Below are positions 1,457 to 17,796 of a stretch of DNA of 39,921 bases, piece by piece (the stretch's first letter is position 1; each line of letters begins with the position of its first letter). The position numbers were made by a program, and so were the translations under genes. Origin of the DNA: Elusimicrobiota bacterium (GTDB lineage: Bacteria; Elusimicrobiota; Elusimicrobia; Elusimicrobiales; UBA9959); the NCBI GenBank assembly GCA_009773155.1, contig WOVA01000028.1, positions 1-39,921 on the forward strand. The letters run 5' to 3'. The notes beneath the pieces are model-generated. The model ran no database searches. It was not told the origin of the DNA and saw only the letters and a list, made by a program, of their open reading frames with translations.

Positions 1457-1878
1457 AACTATGCCGGGCTGCCGGGGACTCACCACGAAAAAACAGCGTC
1501 CCCGGCTCACCGTGGGGACACGCGCTCGTCACGGTTCGCTTTTTCCGGGCCCACCTTCGCTTCGCTCGGCCGGGCACGAACTCGGCCTGCGCGCATAGCG
1601 CGCTAGGCCTCAGACATTCATGCCCGTCCGGCAGTGCCGGTTCCCTCGCTCAGCTCGGGGAAAAAGCTCCTCATGTTCCTCGCCGCGTGTCCCCATGGTG
1701 AGCCAACCTGTCCAGCGTCCCATAAGGAGACAGCCGGGGGAGACGGGGCGGCAGCCTGGCAAAACCTTCGCGAAGGCCCGAGCTTGCGTAAGCGCGAGGG
1801 CCGAGTGAGGAGGAGAGCGCACGGTGTGCGCGACCCGCGTTTTGCGGGCTGCCGCCCCGGCATGCCCCCGGCATAGTT
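1457..1878. repeat. 422-bp inverted-repeat-bounded intergenic element
   Basis: The stretch between the BadF-like and inositol phosphatase genes has no convincing coding frame. It is framed by perfect 12-bp inverted repeats, AACTATGCCGGG at 1457-1468 and its complement at 1867-1878. Inside lies a second inverted repeat with 21-bp arms and one mismatch (1504-1524 against 1684-1704). The right third folds as a multi-stem domain, listed separately. No target duplication is obvious at the edges. It may be a miniature non-autonomous element or a structured repeat of this genome. It ends 10 bases before the next start codon, so it supplies that gene's entire leader. Confidence 0.6.
1745..1858. ncRNA. 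Candidate structured RNA or multi-stem DNA fold
   Basis: A perfect 12-bp outer stem, GGGGCGGCAGCC (1745-1756) with GGCTGCCGCCCC (1847-1858), encloses four small hairpins in series. They are an AACCTT..AAGG stem near 1764-1777, a GCTT..AAGC stem near 1782-1793, GCGCAC..GTGCGC near 1817-1831 and CCCGC..GCGGG at 1834-1848. This is a closed multibranch layout. The last hairpin shares two bases with the outer stem, so not all helices can form together. No known RNA family is recognised. It could be a structured transcript, a leader of the following gene, or simply the folded arm of a mobile repeat. Confidence 0.35.
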
Positions 1879-12375: not shown

Positions 12376-12583
12376 TGTCTCGCTCAAGGACTACCCCACC
12401 ATCCGCCACTGCATCAAGTTCGTCCTCGACGAGAAAGGCGGCTCCGCGGCGCCGGCGCCCGCCGCTCAGCCCGCATCGGCGGGGGACACCATGCAGCAGG
12501 GTGTCCCAGTACCATCTGCTCCTGCGCAGGCCGCCGCTCAGCCCGCTCCCGCCGCCGGCGGCGTAGACGAAGGATCTCGGTGA
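12182..12583 (+). CDS. First acyl carrier protein domain of the synthase, in shifted frame
   Basis: This segment encodes a complete ACP domain (helix ESVKAEILDMITDKTGYP, then DLGIDTVKQAEL and LKDYPTIRHCIKFVL) in frame 2, while both flanks are in frame 1. The frame-2 reading extends left of the nominal ATG as a Pro/Ala linker to about base 12140, so this is a domain of the synthase and not a free gene. No Shine-Dalgarno sequence precedes the ATG. The TGA stop overlaps a GTG that opens the next frame. Matching the junction to the first copy, GGATCTCGGTG holds two extra bases (TC) relative to the expected GGATCGGTG. The upstream shift equals one extra base. The phosphopantetheine site is Thr (GIDT), not the usual Ser. 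Confidence 0.7.
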   Translation: MPAAGLGEESVKAEILDMITDKTGYPRDMIELDLDMEADLGIDTVKQAELFAAMREHYNIPRRDNVSLKDYPTIRHCIKFVLDEKGGSAAPAPAAQPASAGDTMQQGVPVPSAPAQAAAQPAPAAGGVDEGSR

Positions 12584-12838
12584 AAACCGCCATCCTTAAC
12601 ATGATAGCCGACAAGACCGGCTATCCCAGGGATATGCTCGAGCTAGATCTCGACATGGAAGCCGACCTCGGCATCGATACCGTCAAGCAGGCCGAGCTCT
12701 TCGCCGCCATGCGCGATAATTACGATATACCGCGCCGCGACAACCTCTCGCTCAAGGACTACCCCACCATCCGCCACTGCATCAAGTTCGTCCTCGACGA
12801 GAAAGGCGGCTCCGCAGCGCCGGCGCCCGCCGCTCAGC
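12212..12838 (+). repeat. Tandem duplication of the ACP-coding unit
   Basis: Bases 12212-12470 are repeated at 12580-12838 with an offset of 368 bases and only scattered substitutions, by eye over 90 percent identity. An offset of 368 is not a multiple of three, which fits the frame difference between the two ACPs. High identity suggests recent duplication or gene conversion, and also marks a place where assemblies can go wrong. Confidence 0.85.
12467..12517 (+). repeat. Family A in-frame palindromic repeat, copy 2
   Basis: The core is GGGACACCATGC (12483-12494), one base, then GCAGGGTGTCCC (12496-12507), with one arm mismatch. The downstream flank AGTACCATCT matches copy 4. It is read in frame with the first ACP as GDTMQQGVPV, within the Pro/Ala linker that follows that ACP. 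The equivalent linker after the second ACP lacks it. Confidence 0.85.
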
Positions 12839-15408
12839 CAGTGCCGGTTCAGCAGGCCCCCGCATCAGCGGTGGCATCCCCCGCTCCCCAGCAGGAGTTG
12901 CCTTTCGACGAGGAGCCCTCGACGGAATACCCCAAGCGCCATATCCGCCATATCCCGGTGATAACCCCGGCCCCCGTGGAGCAGGAGATAATAAGGAAAT
13001 ACTCCTCCTCCCGACCCGTGCTGATCATGGCCTCGGACCTGGCGCTGGCCAAGGCCTACCGCGCCGAGCTGTCCAAGCACCGGATCGACTCCCATATCTT
13101 CATCTCGGAGAAGACCCGGCTGAAGGATTCGCAGGCGCTGGACTGGGCCGATACCGCCGCCGTCGACAAAGCGCTGCAGGACTTCGCCGCGGCCCATCCC
13201 GACACGCAGGGCCTGGTCTACCTGCTGGGCTGCGCCGAGAAGAAGTTCGCGCCCGCCTCCACCGACGCCTACGCGGACTACAACCGCTTCGCGGTGCCGC
13301 TGTTCCTGGCCGCCAAGCATCTCTTCAAACCGCTCAGCGCCGTGGAACCGGGCCTCTCCACCTTCCTGACCGTGGTAACGCGGCTGGACGGCGGCTTCGG
13401 CTACCGGACCGACCAGGTCTACGACCCTATATACGGCGCCATACACGGAGTGGCCCTCTGCCTGCGCAAGGAGCTGGAGAAAACCACCGTGAAGATCATT
13501 GACTTCGCGGCCGGCTCCCCGACGGAGGCGCTGGTGCAGAAGACGTTCTACGAGCTGCTCTACGGCGACAAGCGGCTGGCCATAGGCTACGACGGCGCCA
13601 GGCGCAGCACCATGCTGGCCAAGCCCGAGCTGCTGGACTATTCCCGCGAGCGCACCCCTCTCAAGGGCAAGAAAGTCATAGTCACCGGCGGCGGGCGCGG
13701 CCTCGGCTCGCTGTTCGCCAAGATCCTGGCCAGGCGCTGGAAACCCGAGCTGATACTGATGGACATCATCGAGCTCGGCGCCGGTATAGAGCGCTTCGCG
13801 GCGATGACCGAGGACCAGCTCAAGACCTATAAGAACTCCGAGCTCTGGGCCGAGGTGAAGAAGAAGCACGCCAAGCCCACGCCGGCGCTGCTCGAGCGGG
13901 AATTCACCGCGCTCAGGGACGCGGCGGAGCTCTACCGGACCATGCAGCGGATAAAGGCCGCTGGTTCCAAAGTCTCCTATATCAAGTGCGACCTCAACGA
14001 CCCGGCGGCCTTTAAAGCGGCCGTGGCAGGACTCAAGGCCGCTCACGGCCAGGTGGACGGCCTGGTCCACTTCGCCGGGCTGGAGCGCTCCAAGCTGGTC
14101 TCCGACAAGGCGCTGGAGGAGTTCCAGCTCATCTACAAGGTCAAGGCGCATAGCGCCATGAACTTCCTCAAGTCCGGCCTCGTAAAAGAGAAGGGCTTCT
14201 GGGTGATGATCTCGTCGATAGCCGGCAAGTTCGGCAACCTCGGCCAGAGCGATTACGCCGCGGCCTCCGACTACATCGCCAAGATGTGCGTCTCGCTCTC
14301 CAATAAGGGCGTGCGCGCGCTCAGCGTGGACATGACGGCCTACGCGCTCATCGGCATGGGCGCGCGGCCCGGCGTGGAGGCCTTCCTGAAGTCGCAGGAG
14401 CTGGACTTCCTCTACCCCGAAGAGGGCATGAACGCCGTCGCCGACGAGCTGGCCTACGGCCAGCGGCCGGAGATAGTGCTCAGCGGCAGCCTGGGCAAAC
14501 TGGACTGGGACAGGCAGCTCACCTTCGTCCCCGGCTTTCCCGGGACCTCGCCGTCGTCCTGGCATTTCGCCGAGAAGGTTAAGGCCAATGTGAAGGGCGT
14601 CGAGTTCGCCGCGGAGAAGGAATACTCGATGGAGAAGGACCCCTACCTGACCGATCACTCCATAAACGGCACGCCGTACGTGCCGGGCGTGATGGGGCTG
14701 GAGACCTTCGCCGAATGCGCCGCCGAGTTCTCAGGGCGGGTGCCGTCCTCGCTGGAGGACGTGCGCTTCCAGGTGCCGATAAAGCTGCTGCGCAACAAGC
14801 CCGTCACCGGCCTCATCAACGCCAGGCCGGAAGGCCCGCGCACGGCCATGACCATCTCGACGGAGTTCACCGGGCCCAAGGGCGTCAAGCTGGGCCAGGC
14901 CAGGACCCATTTCAGCGCCAGGGCTTCCTACGAGACGCATAAGCAGTGGGAGGGGGAAGAAAAACCCTCAATACCCAAGGTGAAGAAGTACAAGGTCACG
15001 GCCGAGACCATCTACAAGACCTACTTCCATGGCCCCAGCTTCCGCGTACTCGATGGCATACTGGAACTGGAGAAGGACGGCACGCTGGCCGTCTTCCGCC
15101 GGCCGCAGGCCCCTCTGTTCAAGGGCGAGCGGCCGAAGCTGATCTTCCACCCGCTGGTCGTCGAGGCCGCCTTCCAGGCCTGCGGCTACCGCGACATATA
15201 CTTCGAGAGGAAGATGACTCTGCCCGACTCGGTCGGCCGCGTGACGGTCTACCCGCACGAGAACGAGCCGGACATACTCTACCTCAAGACGGTGTACAAG
15301 GGCCGCGACGGAGAGGGGCGCAGCATATACGACGCCTTCGCCTTCGACGAAGCGCATAACCTGTTCGCGGAAGTGCGGGACTACCTGATGATCCCGACGC
15401 AGATATAG
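12580..15408 (+). CDS. PfaA-like synthase, ACP-KR-DH part
   Basis: This is the C-terminal part of the synthase. The frame opens at GTG 12580, which overlaps the TGA of the preceding segment. Residues 1-85 are a second ACP, again with Thr in DLGIDTVKQ. A Pro/Ala linker follows, then a region (120-360) typical of the structural half of ketoreductases. The NAD(P)-binding KR starts at VIVTGGGRGLG (about 368), with Tyr559 in SDYAAAS. The last 260 residues are a polyketide-type hot-dog dehydratase: His693 in DHSINGTPYVPG (HxxxGxxxxP), HGPSF, and HPLVVEAAFQ in the second half. KR and DH would convert 3-ketoacyl to enoyl intermediates. No enoyl reductase (PfaD) is in the window, so full saturation needs a partner elsewhere. 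Confidence 0.85.
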   Translation: MKTAILNMIADKTGYPRDMLELDLDMEADLGIDTVKQAELFAAMRDNYDIPRRDNLSLKDYPTIRHCIKFVLDEKGGSAAPAPAAQPVPVQQAPASAVASPAPQQELPFDEEPSTEYPKRHIRHIPVITPAPVEQEIIRKYSSSRPVLIMASDLALAKAYRAELSKHRIDSHIFISEKTRLKDSQALDWADTAAVDKALQDFAAAHPDTQGLVYLLGCAEKKFAPASTDAYADYNRFAVPLFLAAKHLFKPLSAVEPGLSTFLTVVTRLDGGFGYRTDQVYDPIYGAIHGVALCLRKELEKTTVKIIDFAAGSPTEALVQKTFYELLYGDKRLAIGYDGARRSTMLAKPELLDYSRERTPLKGKKVIVTGGGRGLGSLFAKILARRWKPELILMDIIELGAGIERFAAMTEDQLKTYKNSELWAEVKKKHAKPTPALLEREFTALRDAAELYRTMQRIKAAGSKVSYIKCDLNDPAAFKAAVAGLKAAHGQVDGLVHFAGLERSKLVSDKALEEFQLIYKVKAHSAMNFLKSGLVKEKGFWVMISSIAGKFGNLGQSDYAAASDYIAKMCVSLSNKGVRALSVDMTAYALIGMGARPGVEAFLKSQELDFLYPEEGMNAVADELAYGQRPEIVLSGSLGKLDWDRQLTFVPGFPGTSPSSWHFAEKVKANVKGVEFAAEKEYSMEKDPYLTDHSINGTPYVPGVMGLETFAECAAEFSGRVPSSLEDVRFQVPIKLLRNKPVTGLINARPEGPRTAMTISTEFTGPKGVKLGQARTHFSARASYETHKQWEGEEKPSIPKVKKYKVTAETIYKTYFHGPSFRVLDGILELEKDGTLAVFRRPQAPLFKGERPKLIFHPLVVEAAFQACGYRDIYFERKMTLPDSVGRVTVYPHENEPDILYLKTVYKGRDGEGRSIYDAFAFDEAHNLFAEVRDYLMIPTQI

Positions 15409-16170: not shown

Positions 16171-17796
16171 ATGCCGGATCTCAACGACGAAGCGATAAGA
16201 GCCCCCCAGAACTCTGACAAAAAAGTCCATCCCAAGAAAGTGCGCCCCGTCTCCGAATCCCTGGTAAAGTACCGGGCTCTGCGCGCTCAGGCCGAAGCCG
16301 GCGGCCCGCCCGAGAAGATAGAGGCGCAGAAGAAGCGCGGCAAGCTTACCGCCCGCGAGCGCATCGCCTACCTGCTCGACGAAGGCTCTTTCCAGGAGAT
16401 AGGGCTCCTGATGGAGTCGCGCTGCACCGATTTCGGCATCAAGGACAAGCATATCAAGGGCGACGGCGTAGTGACCGGCTTCGGCAAGGTCAACGGCCGC
16501 CCGATCGCGGTATTCTCCGAAGACTTCACGCAGCTGGGCGGCTCGCTGGGCCGCACCCACGCCGACAAGATAGCCCGCATCATGGACATGGCCAGGGACG
16601 CCGGCGTGCCGGTGGTCGGCATACTGGATTCCGGCGGCGCCCGCATACAGGAGGGCGTGGACTCGCTGGACGGCTACGGCGAGATCTTCCTCCGCAATAC
16701 ACTCTCTTCCGGCAAGATACCGCAGATCTCGGTCATCGTCGGCCCCTGCGCCGGCGGCGCGGTCTATTCCCCGGCCCTGACCGACTTCGTCTTCATGGTA
16801 AAGGGCATCAGCCACATGTTCGTGACCGGCCCCGAGGTGGTCAAGGCCGCCACCGGAGAGGAAGTGGATTTCGAGACCCTCGGCGGCGCGCAGACCCACT
16901 CCAGCAAGTCCGGCGTCTGCCATTTCATGGCCAATTCCGAGCCCGACTGCTTCCGGCAGGTCAAGGAACTGCTCGACTTCCTGCCCTCCAACAGTTCCGA
17001 GCCGGCGCCCGCCATCGAAACCAAGGACTCGCACGACCGCAAGGTCCCGCTGCTGGAGAAGCTCTGCGAGATGGACCCCCGCAAACCCTACCGCGTGCAC
17101 CATATCATCTGGTGGCTGGCGGACGACCACAAGTTCATGGAAGTGCATCACGGCTACGCCAGGAACATCGTGATCGGCTTCATGCGCCTGGGCGGCCGGG
17201 TGACGGGCGTGATCGCCAACAACCCGTCTCACATGGCCGGGGCGCTGGACATCAACGCCTCCGACAAGGCGGCCCGTTTCATCCGTTTCCTGAACTGCTT
17301 CAACATCCCGATACTGACGCTCGTAGACGTGCCCGGCTACTGGCCCGGCGTCGCCCAGGAGCACGGCGGGATAATCCGTCACGGCGCCAAACTGCTCTAC
17401 GCCTATTCCGAGGCCTCGGTGCCCAAGGTGTCGCTGGTACTGCGCAAGGCCTACGGCGGCGCCTACATCGCGATGAATTCCAAGCTGATGGGGGGGGATT
17501 TCAACTTCTCGCTGCCGTCTGCGGAGATAGCGGTCATGGGCCCGCGCGGCGCTATCGAGATACTTTATTCCAAACAGATAAAAGAGGCCAAGGACGAGGA
17601 ACGCGACGCGCTCAAGGCGAAGCTGGCAAAGGAATATTCGGACAAGTTCGCCTCGCCCTACCAGACGGCCTCGACCGGCTCGATAGACGAAGTCATAGAG
17701 CCGGCCTCGGCCCGTGCCACTCTGATAGACGCCTTCGAGCTGCTGCGCGGCAAGAAGCGGCGCGACAGCGGCGGCCCGGGAAACATCCCGCTGTAG
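16171..17796 (+). CDS. Acyl-CoA carboxylase / methylmalonyl-CoA carboxyltransferase beta-type subunit
   Basis: This 541-residue protein is a biotin-dependent carboxyltransferase of the PccB/MmdA/12S family, at normal family length. Characteristic blocks are GKLTARERI and LLDEGSF near residue 60, GGSLGRTHADKI, ILDSGGARIQEGVDSL, GPCAGGAVYSPALTDF (N-terminal oxyanion hole), VTGPEVVKAATGE, then VTGVIANNPS, VDVPGYWPG, RKAYGGAYIAMNSK and AEIAVMGPRGAIEIL (C-terminal half). It transfers carboxyl between biotin and acetyl-, propionyl- or methylmalonyl-CoA; residues deciding the substrate cannot be read with confidence. A GGAGG Shine-Dalgarno sequence lies 5 bases upstream. Its place after the synthase and PPTase suggests supply of the malonyl- or methylmalonyl-type extender, but a general metabolic role is equally possible. 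No biotin carrier or carboxylase subunit is nearby. Confidence 0.9.
   Translation: MPDLNDEAIRAPQNSDKKVHPKKVRPVSESLVKYRALRAQAEAGGPPEKIEAQKKRGKLTARERIAYLLDEGSFQEIGLLMESRCTDFGIKDKHIKGDGVVTGFGKVNGRPIAVFSEDFTQLGGSLGRTHADKIARIMDMARDAGVPVVGILDSGGARIQEGVDSLDGYGEIFLRNTLSSGKIPQISVIVGPCAGGAVYSPALTDFVFMVKGISHMFVTGPEVVKAATGEEVDFETLGGAQTHSSKSGVCHFMANSEPDCFRQVKELLDFLPSNSSEPAPAIETKDSHDRKVPLLEKLCEMDPRKPYRVHHIIWWLADDHKFMEVHHGYARNIVIGFMRLGGRVTGVIANNPSHMAGALDINASDKAARFIRFLNCFNIPILTLVDVPGYWPGVAQEHGGIIRHGAKLLYAYSEASVPKVSLVLRKAYGGAYIAMNSKLMGGDFNFSLPSAEIAVMGPRGAIEILYSKQIKEAKDEERDALKAKLAKEYSDKFASPYQTASTGSIDEVIEPASARATLIDAFELLRGKKRRDSGGPGNIPL

Follow-up and report, generated by a model that had tools for sequence, protein, structure and literature searches.

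Position and structure of the element

The window, by which we mean the whole stretch of 39,921 nucleotides that was analysed, contains a 438-base noncoding gap between two plus-strand reading frames (623-1450 and 1889-2728). One of these neighbours encodes a BadF/BadG ATPase domain, the other an inositol monophosphatase. The first-pass annotation had described in this gap a single unit with perfect 12-bp ends, a nested 21-bp inverted repeat, a four-hairpin domain closed by 12 bp, and more structure than expected by chance. All of the repeats do lie inside the spacer (Table 1) and the 12-bp ends are perfect complements; comparable ends are legible in many of the 10 other aligned long copies. 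The nested repeat is present with one mismatch, so that 20 of its 21 positions pair. The multibranch domain is closed by 12 perfect pairs (1744-1755 with 1848-1859), and this closing stem and two inner hairpins were found in most aligned copies, but the small CTTCGCGAAG hairpin was found in only 3 of 21 aligned copies.

The excess of structure over chance was also borne out. The predicted fold of positions 1440-1890 had a z-score of -8.05 and none of 100 shuffled sequences was as stable, while the longest perfect inverted repeat in 1451-1888 was 13 bases, compared with 7-11 in 60 shuffles. Several copies of the element lie no more than about 200 bases from a contig end, as an assembly artefact might, but the shuffle tests contradict chance palindromes and the same element was found in assemblies from several projects; an origin by chance or misassembly can practically be dismissed. 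An intrinsic terminator was sought in 1300-2000 and none was found. Elsewhere in the window, a long reading frame (12580-15408) encodes ketoreductase and polyketide dehydratase domains (Pfam) and lies near a carboxyltransferase gene (16171-17796).

Table 1. Features of the intergenic element, in window coordinates
Feature	Position	Strand	Sequence or remark
Whole element	1457-1878		422 bp, intergenic, from an Elusimicrobia bacterium
Outer/B module	1457-1503 and 1705-1878		palindromic, encloses A
Left terminal inverted repeat of outer element	1457-1468	.	AACTATGCCGGG
Right terminal inverted repeat of outer element	1867-1878	.	CCCGGCATAGTT
Module A, long hairpin	1504-1704	-	20/21 arms; solo copies elsewhere; strand as suggested by A-C/G-U counts
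A outer arm, left	1504-1524	.	sequence differs from copy to copy, complementarity mostly kept
A outer arm, right	1684-1704	.	pairs with 1504-1524
A core	1553-1644	-	covariance model R1, 68 bits, E 3e-23; this copy belongs to the sequences R1 was built from
One side of conserved internal loop	1578-1583	-	GAACTC (minus: GAGTTC), invariant in A2
Other side of conserved asymmetric internal loop	1609-1619	-	CTCAGACATTC (minus: GAATGTCTGAG)
Small hairpin of A	1628-1640	.	CCGGCAGTGCCGG; one pair swapped from G-C to C-G in 5/49 copies
Module B conserved 5' boundary	1722-1741	+	ATAAGGAGACAGCCGGGGGA
Module B multibranch domain	1744-1859	.	outer 12-bp stem with two-sided changes

Copies and modular structure

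A BLAST search of 41 genomes gave matches in 11, counting the genome of the window, with at least 20 in this genome and at least 19-24 in each of three congeners; no more than 16 candidates were scored in any genome, so these numbers are lower bounds, and they count pieces rather than copies. Shorter hairpin parts were matched in other genera of the same family. There was no BLAST match in 16 genomes of the order's other family; within that family the covariance model R1 had three weak matches, all in G098. One conserved pattern of the A core located nine copies in the genome of the window, at places with 0 or 2 mismatches; when up to 3 mismatches were allowed, the pattern also gave 4 control matches. 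R1, for which up to 36 candidates per genome were scored so that its counts are lower bounds, likewise found nine, and more in each of the three congeners. The element is thus not single-copy, and its stems are conserved (see below); the opposite of both had been named by the first-pass annotation as the result that would speak against it.

Thirty-five loci were read individually. Module A often occurs alone (L009, L012, L016, L027, L036 and others), module B also occurs alone, and the composite is found too. Two modules, both also found separately, are thus a better description of the 422 bp than a single unit. One locus (L020) is an outer element without A; as remnants of the arm are present there, both a pre-insertion state and a deletion are possible. 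The solo A copy at L012 (G000:C66:46177-46365) occupies a gap whose counterpart in the congener G001 measures only about 10 bases, and the genes beside it resemble NADH dehydrogenase subunits by eye.

Distribution across phyla

A gapped version of the A pattern was found in 58 stretches of GTDB genomes, mostly from Elusimicrobia, and also from Patescibacteria, from the betaproteobacterium Rivibacter subsaxonicus, and from a gammaproteobacterial bin. One match from the Verrucomicrobia (L088) resembles coding sequence and probably arose by chance. Read on the reverse strand, the tip of A has the signature cGAGGAnTGTyTGAG-[hairpin]-CGAGTTCc, which recurs in other Elusimicrobia, Patescibacteria and Proteobacteria. 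Distant carriers have TGCGGAACTCG-[hairpin]-CTCARACAGTCCTCGC, or a sequence close to it, at the tip, and their long arms vary with each copy yet pair at every site. A looser tip pattern was found in 10 of 11 genomes, against none for the reversed control; the genome missed was that of the window, where the copies differ at the last bases.

Under strict filters, R1, whose source sequences include some of these copies, matched at least 18 of 119 Elusimicrobiota genomes and at least 14 of 48 genera. R1 also gave 26 matches in G044 and 27 in G048, genomes of 0.9 and 0.8 Mb, 11 in G042, three in G043 and two in G049. The element is patchily distributed across genomes. Plasmid and phage records contained no match to the Rivibacter copy or the IMG/VR copy, and viral contigs gave no match with the first pattern and one with the second. 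One contig binned as Bacteroidetes (L113, JAGVVH010000312.1) has an Elusimicrobia-type copy of A and is likely misbinned. Proteobacterial copies (L125, L126, L090, L151 and L236) lie near further inverted repeats of the types CTTTCTCTTGCGTGCCCAAGAGAAAG and GGGCACCC, which suggests another composite of like design.

Conservation of the stems

Covariation was found in both modules. In 21 distinct copies of B, 11 of the 12 pairs of the outer stem showed two-sided changes with pairing kept, and broken stems occurred in a few copies, such as L020, L028 and L032 (L041 was left out of this alignment for N or length). Among 49 distinct copies of A, two-sided changes were carried by 11 of the 25 pairs that are common to the predictions for both strands. 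The cross-phylum alignment A2, made up of 45 of 87 distinct sequences, had two-sided changes at 14 of 17 pairs; in total there were 118 two-sided cells compared with 42 in shuffles, and the covariation score was 0.409 compared with 0.142. The cells of A2 were paired in 82.5% of cases, a value that dropped to 29.8-50.3% when the partners were slid. L088, L113, L085, L138 and L156 were left out of both A1 and A2. Since the stems change in sequence while staying paired, it seems to be the folded shape, rather than the sequence, that is kept. Multiple copies and base pairs that survive changes on both sides support the suggestion of the first-pass annotation that this is a non-autonomous mobile repeat, a structured RNA, or both.

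Likely strand of the fold

In the plus sense, the mismatches of A were A-C 18 times and G-U 3 times in the congeners, and A-C 21 times and G-T 7 times in the arms of the Patescibacteria group. This excess of A-C corresponds to wobble pairs on the reverse strand, so the counts favour a fold of A on that strand. The evidence is moderate, because the model pairs of A2 taken alone and the B stem (A-C 27, G-U 24) have no clear strand bias and the copies are related. The reverse strand was also the better predicted RNA fold in 25 of 27 copies from the Patescibacteria group and 42 of 45 from the congeners. Part of this advantage came from the constant core: for the arms alone, the reverse strand was better rather than worse in 20 versus 6 copies of the Patescibacteria group, 34 versus 10 of the congeners, and 4 versus 4 of the other Elusimicrobia. 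Read on the reverse strand, the internal loop has GUYUGA facing GA, a combination that could form tandem G-A pairs in the manner of a kink-turn.

These wobble counts and folding preferences, together with the covariation and the invariant unpaired bases, would suit a class of structured RNA with the reverse strand as the RNA, for example a protein-binding hairpin with a kink-turn-like loop, that is multi-copy by coincidence. Such a class would have to accommodate the even split of the arms in the other Elusimicrobia, the contribution of the constant core to the folding difference, and the lack of strand bias in the A2 pairs and the B stem. It also finds no counterpart in Rfam, where the window had no match at the gathering score and 13 carrier loci had none except one tRNA. 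Known Rfam RNAs were rejected as an identity for the element; the sub-threshold matches to miRNA, snoRNA and leader families that appeared at permissive E-values look like chance.

Gene setting

The setting of the copies was counted with genes called by a home-made gene caller. The Patescibacteria group comprised 27 copies, three of which came from a MAG named only 'bacterium' (G050); a co-directional gene preceded the element in 24, genes on both sides were co-directional in 22, and one copy lay between divergent genes. Among 50 copies from the genus of the window, 12 had both genes in the same direction as the element, 13 had both in the opposite direction, 12 were in convergent gaps and three in divergent gaps, and 10 had no called gene on one side. 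The corresponding numbers for 34 copies from five other Elusimicrobia genomes were 10, 10, 7 and 2, with five lacking a gene on one side; this set includes at least one spurious core match (L218:2190), and the core was missed in 3 of 36 loci from genomes other than G042. The tally for G042 contains a spurious match and was not used. Divergent gaps were the rarest two-sided setting in all three sets (3/50, 2/34 and 1/27).

Orientation relative to the genes was neutral in Elusimicrobia. This neutrality, and the fact that orientation can differ at one site, speak against the element being an RNA class transcribed from the reverse strand, as does the position of the favoured strand in the Patescibacteria group, where in 24 of 27 copies it would lie antisense to the gene before the element. 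Taking both sides together, we consider a structured RNA rather unlikely. On the 1.24-Mb contig C3 of the Patescibacteria genome G042, all 11 R1 matches are on one strand and GC skew is negative at 10 of the 10 places read, so that orientation to replication and orientation to transcription are not separable there.

Dynamics at orthologous sites

Three sites were followed in the congeners. The element is present in G000 and G002 and absent from G001 at all three and from G003 at one, no match being found in G003 at the other two. Sites without the element hold short spacers, and the identities of the flanks at the three sites gave no decision between loss and gain. Target duplications had been proposed by the first-pass annotation as something to look for alongside further copies and covariation, both of which were found; none was recognised when three empty sites were read, in congeners that have diverged.

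In the spacer of the window, A is inverted in G002, and reduced and inverted in G001. Inversion between orthologous copies was seen by both flanks for one pair and by one flank for five more, and other copies keep their orientation. Core identity was 60 to 96% at eleven same-orientation orthologous pairs. Three of these were only 60-68% identical, under the 76% mean of 150 random non-orthologous pairs, which indicates that conversion or repeated insertion is mixed in, with some sites keeping the element and others having swapped subtype.

In five places of G002, all of them close to the end of a contig, A gives way at one exact point to an identical foreign end. The cut point lies after ...GGGGAAAAA[G/C]CTT (L042, L084, L113, L176-L180), and the same foreign end was found on one contig of a Bacteroidetes-named bin with the same sample prefix (WAS). 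This end probably belongs to a multi-copy insertion sequence that targets A; it runs into the contig end, and the coding part of the putative insertion sequence lies beyond.

Search for a partner enzyme

Y1 transposases are the known partners of REP sequences, and they were found in 22 of 25 genomes of the family. Six Y1_Tnp neighbourhoods in G000-G002 contained no BLAST match to the element (0/6), and Y1_Tnp was undetected in 5 of 13 carriers, although these genomes may simply miss contigs. When R1 was run over 18 Y1 loci, which represent 17 genes, there was a single clear match, in G076, and a marginal one (L055, E 0.058); Y1 genes of the remaining genomes were compared by position only. The G076 copy (L237:1777-1864) lies upstream of a Y1 gene (L237:2376-3038), at a distance of about 510 bp. 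An inverted repeat of its own, GGGGACGGTTCTATTT / AAATAGAACCGTCCCC, brackets this gene, and the copy lies outside those ends, with no good R1 match on the other side of the gene. A Y1 gene flanked by the repeat, as in RAYT-mobilised REPs, was thus not found at these loci. RAYT/Y1 as the general partner was rejected on the six neighbourhoods, the five carriers and the position of the lone G076 copy. These searches yielded no partner enzyme.

The perfect ends, the long copies elsewhere with related ends, and the presence or absence of the element at given sites are what a conventional MITE would show, one in which the 422 bp moves whole by its 12-bp terminal repeats and a DDE or Y1 transposase and the internal folds are incidental. 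Incidental folds do not account for two-sided changes in both the inner and the outer stems, and movement as a whole does not account for modules found apart. No transposase was found with these ends, nor was a target duplication recognised at the three sites. We regard a conventional MITE as improbable.

Proposed mechanism

The reading that we hold to be probable is a new family of mosaic intergenic hairpin repeats resembling REP/BIME, in which selection would act on the folded strand and some enzyme would spread the copies in trans. The 422 bp would be hairpin module A set inside an outer palindromic element that carries the multibranch module B. Such elements would be non-autonomous, their spread being driven by a trans-acting enzyme that is probably not always a Y1/RAYT transposase. 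This enzyme would recognise a folded single strand with the conserved asymmetric internal loop (5'-GUYUGA opposite GA, with possible tandem G-A pairs). Once inserted between genes, the hairpin may do no harm or may serve as a 3'-end or intercistronic structure, a role we infer and one that would fit both the rarity of divergent settings and the usual position of Patescibacteria copies shortly after stop codons.

A bolder version can be offered tentatively, as possible rather than probable. It holds that Elusimicrobia, Patescibacteria and Proteobacteria share an undescribed folded-strand element, with a fixed asymmetric loop and arms of free sequence that must pair; its fold would be selected on the strand antisense to neighbouring genes, and the loop would be the recognition site of a widespread enzyme acting on single-stranded hairpins, either to move or to process them.

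REP-like repeats are common, and the element bears on the spread of those families that lack a dedicated transposase. The sharply defined cross-phylum signature, the presence and absence of copies, the inversion at sites and the hint of a strand preference make the questions of enzyme and strand testable. In addition, the covariance model can be used to annotate spacers in Patescibacteria, where a genome of about 0.8 Mb can hold as many as 27 matches.

Comparison with known systems

No description of the element was found in Rfam 15 or in the open literature among the matches listed, mostly by keyword searches, and no literal signature string was found in the open literature. In the available text of PMC3733652 the term 'elusimicrobi' does not occur, and neither it nor 'patescibacteria' occurs in that of PMC12306157. 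Paired, covarying structure is a property shared with Rfam families.

The closest likeness is to REP/BIME sequences. As described in the available text of PMC3733652, REPs are mostly located between co-directional or convergent genes, some lie within longer palindromes, and the CGTC families have no dedicated transposase. The element is likewise intergenic, palindromic and multi-copy, and likewise was found without a dedicated transposase. It works like a REP/BIME mosaic, with multi-copy intergenic palindromes in mosaic arrangement, but falls outside both REP families considered. Neither GTAG nor CTAC occurs in 1457-1878. CGTC REPs are described in the same text as a CGTC tag with an 8-9 bp stem that has AT residues first and a 4-5 base loop, whereas the CGTC at 1625 precedes CCGGCAGTGCCGG and is not followed by an AT-first 8-9 bp stem. 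REPs also serve as targets of insertion sequences, according to the available text of PMC1525189; similarly, the repeated foreign end enters A at a fixed point in G002, if it is indeed an insertion sequence. REPs are 20-40 bp in length, whereas the element is much longer, with long co-varying arms. Its new features are a conserved asymmetric internal loop carried on freely varying arms and its spread across phyla.
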